DNA from: Blastocystis sp. Blastoise
Taxonomy: Eukaryota > Sar > Bigyra > Opalinata > Blastocystidae
DNA length: 64,000 bases
Assembly: GCA_039096225.1 (NCBI GenBank)
Contig: JBBPEB010000009.1
Location: forward strand, 124,001-188,000
Direction of reading: 5' to 3'
Shown piece after piece: positions 24,244 to 62,196 of the stretch. The notes below the pieces were generated by a model. The model did not search any database and was not told where the DNA came from. It worked only from the letters and a program-made list of their open reading frames with translations. Within the stretch, counting starts at the first letter, position 1, and every line of letters starts with the position of its first letter. The translations under genes and the position numbers were made by a program.

Positions 24244-25324
24244 TAATTACTATCATTTTCTTTTTTTCGTTTTTCTACTTGTGATTATTATCTCTTTTTT
24301 TTTTGATATATATATATATTATTTACTGTTTCTTCTTTTCTCTTTTTTTTATTAATCAAATATTTTTTCCATTTAATTCTTAATTCATTTATTTTTTTGT
24401 TTTGTTTCATTCATAAGTATGCTCTCTGTTATTGTTGACATTTCTATAATTATATAAAAAGAAAGAAATATTTAAGAAAAGATTTTTTTAAATACAAGAT
24501 AAAAGCGAAGTATATTCAGAATCATTATCTCTATGTATCCATATTAATTCAAATCCAGTTTCTATCAGAATGCTAGCAATGTTTCATTTCAATAAAAAAA
24601 CATACGTAAAATTATTATTAAGAATGCATTATATCTATCACCAAAAACCACAAAGTGTAATCTATATATTAACAATTCTTTACATGTACAACAAACTAAA
24701 AGAAAACATTTTTTCGTGAATCACAAAAAAAAAATACTTATTATGCAAAACTACATTATGAAATATTCCCAAAATAACACATCATAAGCTTCCATATATG
24801 AATTACGTATATTTAATAAAAATAAAAGAGAGAACAAATTACATACACCGTTTGAAAATATAAAAACGATATTGAGTTCTACTACTATTTAGAACTGATC
24901 AAGTACTTACTCTTCTATACGTTTTTAAAATGTATACAGTCATATAATTGAATAATATTTTTATTTACTGAAATGATTTTGAGGATTGGTTTCAGTCAAT
25001 GTTTTTCAAGAAGACTCTCTTGGGATTCAAATTTTCTAAGAAAGTCAGTGTATGAATATTCTTAGACTCTCAAGGCGTAGAGAAAGACTTTCTTGGAGAG
25101 CAAACTTGACTCAATATACAGTTTGGCGACAGCTGAGTTTCGGTCGCTTTTAAAAATGAGCCACTCATTTTGATGCAGATGTGTTTCAAAAGACATTTTT
25201 CATGTCGACTGTATATTACAATTGAACTGAGGATTTCTTTTTGTATTCTATTAGAATTCTATGCAAAATTAAAATTATTTTTCATTTCATTTATTTATAT
25301 TTCGTGTTTGAATATATTTATAAA
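24244..25324. other. intergenic region upstream of GT4
   Basis: About 1.1 kb without a recognisable gene. The first part is T-rich 3' UTR-like DNA. The second part (24900-25240) is the GT4 promoter region and contains the two-box repeat at 25008-25096. Its composition from about 24990 to 25200 is less AT-rich than usual for this window. Confidence 0.5.
25008..25096 (+). promoter_or_regulatory. two-box promoter repeat upstream of GT4
   Basis: The distal box AAGAAGACTCTCTTGG (25008-25023) and proximal box AGAAAGACTTTCTTGG (25081-25096) lie 73 bp apart, about 230-320 bp before the GT4 start. The copy upstream of the ZIP gene (2367-2278, minus strand) has the same boxes, order, orientation relative to its gene and a 74-bp spacing. 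Part of the spacer also aligns (GTCAGTGTATGAA here, GCCAGTTTATGAA there). A shared control element is inferred; a mobile-repeat origin is the main alternative. Confidence 0.55.
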
Positions 25325-26473
25325 ATGGAACATTTGATTATAGTTATAGCTTGTGATTGTTATGATTCTACTAATACTGGTGGTGTAATCACTGCTCAAA
25401 GATTTACAAGAATTCTACGAGAACAAGGTCATACCGTACGAATTATAGCTCCTGGAAAGCCTGAGAAAGATAAATACCTTGTACCTGAATTTGGAAGAAA
25501 CAACCCTCTTGGAAAGCTTTGTGAACAACAAGGCATTACGTTAGCTAAGATCAATAGAGATTCTATTCGTGAAGCCTTGACAGGTGCCGATGTTCTTTAT
25601 ACTCTCATACCTACTCCTATGGCATACGCTTGTATTAAAATAGCAAAAGAAATGGGTGTTCCAGTTACTACGGGATTTCATACATTACCTGAAAATTGTA
25701 CATATAACGTTTATTTAGGTTGGTTTAAAGCATTGAATTCATTTGGATATACATTGTTGAAGTGGCTCTTTTACAGTAAAGTCAATTTTATTCATTGTCC
25801 TACACAATTTGTTTGTGATCAATTAGAAAAGCATCATTATAAAGCTAACAAGTATGTTTTTTCTAATGGAACTATTCCATTCTTTCATCCAATGGAAGTT
25901 GAAAGACCAGAAGAATTGAAGAATAAGTTTGTTATTATTTCAGTTGGTCGTTTATCTAATGAAAAACGTCAAGATATTCTTATTAAGGCTGTAAATCGTT
26001 GTAAATATAAAGATGATATTGCTATTATTCTTGGAGGTAAAGGTCCAAATGAGAAGAAGTATCGAAATTTAGCTAAGAAATTACCCAATCCTATACATAT
26101 AGAATTTTATGATCAAGAGAATTTAAGAAAGACTTTGAATATGTGTGATCTTTATGTTCATTGTGCTGATGCAGAAGTTGAGTCTATGTCGTGTACTGAA
26201 GCTTTTTCTTGTGGAATAGTTCCTTTGATTTCAGATGCTAAGATGTCCGCTACAAAACAATTTGCATTAACAAAGAATAATATATTTAAAGCTGGTTCTT
26301 CAAAGGATTTAGCCAAACATATTGAATATTGGATGGATAATCGTGAAGAATTAAGTAATTTAAGTAAACAATATATAGATTTATCTAAAAGTTATTCTAT
26401 ATATAAATGCGCTGATAAAATGGTATCTATGTTTCATGATGCTATTGAAGAGAAGAAGAATAAAGTCATGTAA
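25325..26473 (+). CDS. GT4-type glycosyltransferase, bacterial-like
   Basis: Intronless, 382 residues from the Met at 25325; an in-frame extension to 25241 looks like AT-rich leader. It has the GT-B fold pattern. The N-terminal domain carries GGVITAQRFTRILREQGHTV and GFHTLPENCTYN. The C-terminal domain has IISVGRLSNEKRQDILIKAV, ILGGKGPNEKKYRNLA and an E-x7-E motif in EVESMSCTEAFSCG. No signal peptide or membrane helix is evident. The overall look is that of bacterial GT4 enzymes that glycosylate lipids or surface polymers; donor and acceptor cannot be told. Absence of introns in an intron-dense neighbourhood suggests acquisition from a bacterium. Codon use is now as AT-rich as its neighbours, so any transfer is not recent. 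It shares an upstream repeat with the ZIP gene. Confidence 0.85.
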   Translation: MEHLIIVIACDCYDSTNTGGVITAQRFTRILREQGHTVRIIAPGKPEKDKYLVPEFGRNNPLGKLCEQQGITLAKINRDSIREALTGADVLYTLIPTPMAYACIKIAKEMGVPVTTGFHTLPENCTYNVYLGWFKALNSFGYTLLKWLFYSKVNFIHCPTQFVCDQLEKHHYKANKYVFSNGTIPFFHPMEVERPEELKNKFVIISVGRLSNEKRQDILIKAVNRCKYKDDIAIILGGKGPNEKKYRNLAKKLPNPIHIEFYDQENLRKTLNMCDLYVHCADAEVESMSCTEAFSCGIVPLISDAKMSATKQFALTKNNIFKAGSSKDLAKHIEYWMDNREELSNLSKQYIDLSKSYSIYKCADKMVSMFHDAIEEKKNKVM

Positions 26474-27159: not shown

Positions 27160-32141
<4,982 letters not shown>

Positions 32142-32503: not shown

Positions 32504-34636
32504 ATGGCTCTCAGTACTTCTGTACGCAAACAGTAATTATATATTCAATTGATGTTATAAATATGTTATAGAGCTGAAGAAATCATCAGTAATGATTATG
32601 TTGAAGATGAAGAAGATTCTTTTGAAAACGTTGATAAACTCCAAGTATGATTATTTTAATAGGATGTAGCTATGAAAATTTTAGCAATTTGGAGTAAATG
32701 CAACAGATATTAAAAAATTAAAAGAAGCGGGTTTATATACTATTGGTCTTGTTATGAAAACTCCTGTAAAAGTATGATTTAATCTAGTCATAAATCTTTA
32801 TATATTATGTATTGTAGGATTTATTGGCTGTTAAAGGTTTGAGTGAAGCAAAAGTAGAAAAAATTCTTCAAGTTTGTAAACAGGTAATTCAATTGATTAT
32901 TATGTTTTTTTATATACGTTTATTATTTATATATATAGATAAAAGTATATATAATATATATTGATGTATATCTAAATGAATGTAGGTTGGTGGTCTTTTT
33001 TATACAGGGAGGTATTTTTTATTATTATTAATTAATATATATATATATATATATTCTTTTATAATATATAGAGAAGTGATGCATTTACGTGAAGTATTTA
33101 TTGTTATATAGTGTTTATTGTAGAATGTTGTTAACTGTGATATGCTATATCTTAGATAATGTTTAATATATATATCTATTATATTGAATAATTATATATA
33201 TATAATAAATTATTATATAAATTATTATTTATATTAGATATAATAAATGATTATATTAGATACTATTTACATTATATATAATAATTTATATAATATAATC
33301 TAGAAAGTGATAAAGATTACTACGGGAAGTAAAGAATTAGATACTTTATTAGGAGGAGGGATAGAAACAATGAGTATTACCGAAGTTTTTGGAGAATTTA
33401 GAACAGGAAAAACACAATTAGCTCATACTTTATGTGTTACAACACAATTACCCTCTGAAATGTATATATACTGATATCATCTATTAATTATATATATATA
33501 TATTATAGGCATGGTGCTAATGGAAAAGGTTTGCTATTTTTATTTTACCTTTTTTAATATATATATATAGTGATATTCCTAGATACAGAAGGAACATTAT
33601 ATCCTTTATATTAATATATATGAGTTTATATAAATATCAAATAGGAGTAACCTTAATTAAAAGTTACTAGACCTCAACGTATTATAGAAATAGCAAATCG
33701 ATATGGATTAAATGGTGAAGATGTATTAGATAATATTCTTCTTGCTAGGTATATATATATAATATATAATATATTGGTATATACTACTATTAATTATATT
33801 CTATAGAGCTTATACACATGAACAGCAGATGGATATTATAACGGCAGCAGCTGCAAAAATAGTTGAAGATGAAGCTCCTTATCATTTATTAGTATATATC
33901 TCATATTTACTGATACATCTTATATAACACATAGATTCTTTTTATTTATGAATAATAATCATGTTATTTAATATATCATCATTTCTCTTCTTAATTAAAT
34001 AATTATTATAATAATGTATTATCTCTATCTATATAGATTGTTGATTCTGTTACAGCATTATTTAGAGTTGATTATTCAGGAAGAGGAGAATTATCAGAAC
34101 GACAACAAAAACTAAATAGACATATGAGTGCACTAAAAAAACATATCCATTCTTTTTATAATTATAATAATTTATACAATAGTTGTAATTAGTGATCTTT
34201 AATATATATGTACTCGCTGAAGAATTCAATATTGCAGTACTCATTGTTAACCAAGGTATATTCTATCTATTATATATTATAAATACTCTCATCTATTGAA
34301 TGATCTCTTCTAGTAACTGCAGACCCTGGAGCTGCTTCTATGGTATATATTTTTAGAATTTATCCTTTATAATAAAGCAAATTCTTTAAAAAAAATAATC
34401 ATTTTAGTTTGTAAAAGATACCAAGAAACCAATAGGAGGAAATATTATAGCTCATGCAAGCACAACACGTCTCTATCTACGTAAAGGAAAAGGAGAACAA
34501 CGAATTTGGTATGTTTATAAAATCATAAACAAATAATTTATTTGTATATAGTAAAATATATGATAGTCCAGATCGACCAGAATCAGAAGCAACATTTGCT
34601 ATCGGTACTTTAGGTATAGTAGATGCTGAAGACTAG
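32504..34636 (+). CDS. DMC1: DMC1 meiotic recombinase
   Basis: Sixteen exons close to 345 residues (human DMC1 is 340): 32504-32532, 32572-32644, 32685-32771, 32818-32883, 32986-33011, 33072-33093, 33304-33461, 33509-33528, 33571-33598, 33668-33748, 33807-33891, 34037-34142, 34214-34255, 34314-34342, 34408-34508, 34552-34636. An N-terminal HhH segment ([20 protein letters not shown]) precedes the RecA core. The core has Walker A GEFRTGKT (131-138), DTEGTFRPQRI, Walker B LLIVDS (224-229) and [33 protein letters not shown] and NQVTADPGA favour DMC1 over RAD51. It performs strand exchange in meiosis. Introns 33599-33667 and 34143-34213 are AT-AC introns with U12-like signals; both are needed to keep the conserved protein in frame. 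Confidence 0.95.
33599..33667 (+). other. AT-AC intron with U12-type signals (DMC1 intron 9)
   Basis: The 69-nt intron begins ATATCCTTT, a perfect minor-spliceosome donor, and ends AC. A CCTTAAT branch-like motif has its A about 11 nt before the AC end. Splicing exactly here joins DTEGT-F to RPQRI, the conserved RecA-family sequence. No GT-AG alternative gives that frame. Confidence 0.85.
34143..34213 (+). other. AT-AC intron with U12-type signals (DMC1 intron 12)
   Basis: The 71-nt intron begins ATATCCATT and ends AC, with a TCTTTAAT branch-like motif whose A is about 11 nt from the end. Splicing joins SALKK-L to [13 protein letters not shown], as in DMC1 homologues. Stops block read-through. 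Confidence 0.8.

Positions 34637-37623: not shown

Positions 37624-46616
<8,993 letters not shown>

Positions 46617-47347: not shown

Positions 47348-49676
<2,329 letters not shown>

Positions 49677-59196: not shown

Positions 59197-62196
<3,000 letters not shown>

Follow-up and report, generated by a model that had tools for sequence, protein, structure and literature searches.

The DMC1 gene of Blastocystis sp. Blastoise contains two AT-AC introns that, with high confidence, are genuine introns of the U12-type (minor) class. The gene lies on the forward strand of the 64,000-nucleotide stretch of DNA analyzed in this study (the window), to which the coordinates below refer, and the introns occupy positions 33599-33667 (69 nt, phase 2) and 34143-34213 (71 nt, phase 1). 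Both were identified by a splice search, a test of shifted boundaries and a comparison with the public protein model. An earlier note on this DNA had reported the coordinates, the AT and AC termini, the U12-type donor and branch motifs and a branch adenosine 11 nt from the intron end, and all of these were recovered. The observation is correct, and it extends a phenomenon already described to a further Blastocystis isolate.

The DMC1 gene spans positions 32504-34636, from the start codon to a TAG stop, and it was delimited by the splice search together with comparison with relatives as a gene of 345 residues and 15 introns. When GT/GC-AG and ATAT-AC introns were allowed, six splice paths led to the 345-residue protein, and the same 15 introns were common to all six, namely the two AT-AC introns and 13 GT-AG introns, as the earlier note had it; five of the six paths contained an extra intron within the stop codon. 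With GT/GC-AG introns only, no splice path between 32504 and 34636 yielded the DMC1 protein, and it was the removal of 33599-33667 and 34143-34213, as had been claimed, that restored the conserved EGTFRPQR and KKLAEEFN. Because the target protein of this search was the analyst's own reading of the frames, independent support has to come from its resemblance to related proteins. The spliced protein was matched over most of its length by RAD51 and DMC1 chains with solved structures (E 1.9e-118 and 1.1e-116, respectively), the best solved chain being narrowly RAD51 (398.5 bits versus 392.7 bits for DMC1), and many of the named database matches were DMC1. Within the RAD51/DMC1 family of recombinases, the putative assignment to DMC1 rests on these named matches. 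Moreover, EGTFRPQR and KKLAEEFN were uninterrupted in all three other Blastocystis proteins compared (P0002-P0004), one of which (P0002) was checked by alignment.

Both introns begin with a donor of the ATATCC type. The 5' splice site of intron 1, ATATCCTTT (33599-33607), forms a duplex of 8 pairs with the 5' end of the U11 of this genome (-6.6 kcal/mol), and the donor of intron 2, ATATCCATT (34143-34151), which departs from ATATCCTTT at one position, is weak and forms a weaker U11 duplex (-2.3 kcal/mol). The branch motif CCTTAAT is exact in intron 1 (33651-33657; U12 duplex -5.5 kcal/mol), and intron 2 carries CTTTAAT, with one departure, within TCTTTAAT (34196-34203; U12 duplex -3.8 kcal/mol). 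In both introns the second A of the TTAA core, at 33656 and 34202, is the likely branch adenosine and stands 11 nt from the 3' end. When the boundaries were shifted by up to 3 nt, intron 1 had a single position that preserved the mRNA, and intron 2 had three (AC-GT, CA-TA and AT-AC), so that on mRNA grounds its position is ambiguous by up to 2 nt; among the three, AT-AC is the known class. The combined pattern of donor, branch motif and terminal AC matched twice in the window on both strands. This pattern by itself is not significant, because a set of 90 permuted donors, counting the true one, gave a mean of 1.03 matches, and 24 of the 90 reached two. Chance does not explain the placement of the two matches, as each falls precisely on one of the two excisions by which DMC1 is restored.

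Other features of the window were noted in passing. An open frame of 415 codons at 25226-26473 on the forward strand is glycosyltransferase-like by eye and has no visible introns within a region rich in them; bacterial transfer of this putative glycosyltransferase frame is possible. Long runs of AAT/ATT-type trinucleotides were seen at 29881-30289, 38521-38940, 48736-49127 and 61357-62196, the last of which, read in frame, is poly-Asn inside a longer open frame.

AT-AC introns of the same type were also found elsewhere in the genome. Four AT-AC patterns were compared with reversed controls by rows of matches, which include repeated sites and gene copies. Two short-gap patterns were barely above their controls (16 versus 11 rows and 25 versus 23 rows), a further pattern gave 66 rows versus 38, including 12 copies of the intron of one gene, and the long-gap pattern gave 15 rows (one site twice) versus 3, which is the only strong numerical excess. 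Frame scoring covered 67 of 70 loci and found an open join in 54 and none in 13; the closed join of locus L017 opens with a later AC, and locus L022 remained without support. The frame test is weak, since even DMC1 intron 1, whose exon is short, ranks no higher than the top 4.9% of the null distribution, and Pfam matches were therefore preferred as evidence. When the matches were grouped by their first 14 bases, unrelated introns fell together (L018 with the 12-copy family), and the resulting 32 groups are not equivalent to introns. Among 17 hand-chosen and hand-trimmed joined peptides (8 and 9 from two rounds), six had a Pfam match over cut-off across the junction, comprising a kinase domain (a protein kinase), Sec7, mitochondrial carrier, FYVE, DNA polymerase A and HECT. 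Four peptides had sub-cut-off matches only, with MFS and PH across the junction and TPR and a marginal PepSY-like match beside it, and the remaining seven had no Pfam match.

The 12 near-identical introns were considered as possible mobile introns, and this reading was rejected, since the flanking exons were near-identical too in the six copies with inspected flanks, which indicates that whole genes were copied. The loci L062, L065, L066, L068, L073 and L074 (around base 1500) belong to this 12-match gene family, which has its AT-AC intron at GTY/KTIPHLPTARNYTF, and the joined peptide of one copy had no Pfam match. Three more repeated families showed near-identical flanks in the inspected copies (3/6, 3/3 and 2/4), and no coding was seen in them.

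The two DMC1 introns may be slowly spliced switches that time the expression of the gene, a role compatible with their being minor introns and in line with the argument, in the part of PMC3728624 available to us, that minor introns are switches limited by unstable U6atac. We consider such a role unlikely, as the same kind of intron is found in genes of general function.

The earlier note had proposed a genome-wide search for the minor snRNAs, and this search found U11, U12 (below cut-off) and U6atac, with U4atac represented only by a weak-scoring candidate. The genome searched was the assembly of 33,333,487 bases in 34 contigs, alongside 14 control genomes. In the Rfam search, U6atac (63.8 bits) and U11 (62.9 bits) scored above their cut-offs, and U12 scored 46.8 bits, below its cut-off of 53, with a full-length match that retains the GUAAGGAA stretch. 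Neither U12 nor U6atac matched in any of the 14 control genomes, and U11 at E<=10 matched in three of them, never over the cut-off. Scanning the U12 locus for bacterial promoters was uninformative for a eukaryotic snRNA gene.

For U4atac, the Rfam search of the genome returned nothing at E<=0.001, and a stem-based pattern gave seven matches versus eight in its control, none of which was U4atac-like by eye. At E<=10, one place in the genome was matched (29.7 bits, E 0.045, cut-off 53), and this candidate carries TGCTGAC where the stem-based pattern had demanded TGCTAAC. Its score alone means little, because the same search at E<=10 also matched in 11 of the 14 control genomes. However, the 5' part of the candidate and the U6atac of this genome form stems of 13 and 8 pairs in the expected order. 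When this 5' part was shuffled 2000 times, 10 shuffles reached a complementary run of 13 with U6atac. The energy of the U4atac/U6atac duplex was -32.7, whereas 300 shuffles averaged -19.4 (sd 3.8), the lowest being -35.3. The pairing suggests that the weak-scoring candidate is probably U4atac. A tRNA gene (L077:2078-2149, minus strand) lies about 440 bases upstream of it.

The co-occurrence of U11, U12, U6atac and probably U4atac in the genome, together with AT-AC introns of the same type in other conserved genes, supports the assignment to the minor class that the earlier note had made, and it is most likely that the minor spliceosome removes both DMC1 introns. In the established order of minor splicing, U11 and U12 recognize the donor and the branch site, respectively, U4atac/U6atac enters, U6atac replaces U11, and the branch adenosine attacks. 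For the DMC1 introns, U11 would bind the ATATCC donor, with U12 at the branch site; the U4atac/U6atac pair would then join, and U6atac would take over the donor from U11. The branch adenosine, 11 nt from the intron end, would attack the donor, and the joining of the exons would yield the conserved EGTFRPQR and KKLAEEFN. From the sequence, the frame and the snRNA genes we infer that splicing in the cell takes this course. In other systems, the major spliceosome processes a small number of AT-AC introns that carry U2-type signals. The same could be proposed for the DMC1 introns in view of the poor U11 pairing of intron 2; however, both combine the extended ATATCC donor with a U12-type branch motif at 11 nt, and the minor snRNAs exist in the genome, which makes removal by the major spliceosome very improbable.

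The database protein closest to the spliced DMC1 was WA158_000461 (94% identity), which is assigned to 'Blastocystis sp. Blastoise' itself. Applying GT-AG introns alone to the window reproduced this protein letter for letter (347 residues, stop at 34636). Of the GT-AG introns that it implies on the forward strand, the one at 33529-33663 swallows the 28-nt exon 33571-33598 and all of intron 1 but its last 4 nt, and the one at 34182-34222 begins within intron 2, so that the initial 39 nt of that intron are translated. The differences between WA158_000461 and the conserved protein are found only at the two AT-AC introns, where nine residues (IFLDTEGTF) are replaced by a single T and LAEE is replaced by 14 other residues. 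That the public model is right, with the introns 33529-33663 and 34182-34222 in use and no AT-AC introns at all, is very unlikely: its frame is open and the annotation follows it, but at both replaced places all three other Blastocystis proteins compared and two aligned solved chains are continuous. The public model evidently overlooks both AT-AC introns and is wrong there. DMC1 is often taken as a sign of meiosis, and this public gene model, limited to GT-AG introns, breaks at the AT-AC introns of a meiosis-marker gene; the same fault may be present in other gene models of this isolate.

The subtype and the phase of the minor introns in this genome were also considered. The matching GT-AG minor patterns gave one match versus one in the control and none versus none, and the single match, L027, looks repetitive; these genome patterns yielded no confirmed minor intron of the strict GT-AG type. 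By hand count, 15 AT-AC introns were supported or plausible, six from the 16-row pattern and nine from the 15-row pattern. Given the 23% of other types in subtype 1, the probability that all 15 would be AT-AC is 0.02, a value that assumes equal retention of the consensus in GT-AG minor introns and takes the L027 match as false. The phases of 18 introns hand-picked after inspection were 0 in 10, 1 in 3 and 2 in 5; these 18 comprise eight counted as homology-supported (one by the sub-cut-off MFS match) and 10 open joins, and the phases of joins without homology support are best readings that may be wrong. Open joins without a convincing coding appearance were left out, among them L013, L023, L029, L031, L033, L034, L041 and L059. 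Against the 22% phase 0 that the available text of PMC10639083 gives as the minor-intron average, 10 of 18 corresponds to a one-sided p of 0.002, and five of eight in the first homology-supported set to 0.016; adding the HECT intron, which was among the 10 and later gained Pfam support, gives six of nine by hand. A tentative reading, less likely than not, is that the minor introns of this lineage are AT-AC only with an excess of phase 0, and that both oddities predate its split from subtype 1 and do not stem from a recent gain in subtype 1. On this reading, the lineage may have lost its GT-AG minor introns altogether.

The suggestion of the earlier note that the two introns say something about the splicing machinery and ancestry of the organism was not supported as something new, as the system of Blastocystis subtype 1 was published in 2017 (PMC5608401). 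The available part of that report lists 346 U12-type introns in 319 genes of subtype 1, along with the full set of four minor snRNAs and seven proteins of the minor spliceosome, and describes minor introns and components in subtype 7 too. The accessible text of PMC10639083 gives 253 minor introns for subtype 1, of which 77% are AT-AC and 49% phase 0 (124/253), with a median length of 39 bp; in 2023 it left the AT-AC and phase-0 bias open and called for further species. In the open-licence literature, no paper on the isolate Blastoise or its minor introns was found, and no later study of Blastocystis minor introns was among the matches listed.

Human AT-AC minor introns have the ATATCCTTT donor, the CCTTAAY branch motif and the AC end, and the DMC1 introns resemble them in the donor, in a CCTTAAY-type branch motif and in the AC end. 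Human minor introns differ in their subtypes, as about 26% are AT-AC according to the part of PMC10639083 available, whereas the introns confirmed here include no GT-AG minor intron. Counts cannot be compared with those of subtype 1, which come from annotated introns there and from motif matches here, and the 18 introns of this study are 56-100 nt long in comparison with the subtype 1 median of 39 given in that text, in a search whose patterns excluded introns shorter than about 39 nt. Blastocystis subtype 1 shares the prevalence of AT-AC introns and the presence of minor snRNAs in the available parts of PMC5608401 and PMC10639083, and about half of its minor introns are likewise in phase 0 (124/253 there, 10/18 hand-picked here). 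With the genome of this isolate, the bias toward AT-AC and phase 0 described in PMC10639083, as far as its available text goes, can be tested in a second Blastocystis genome.
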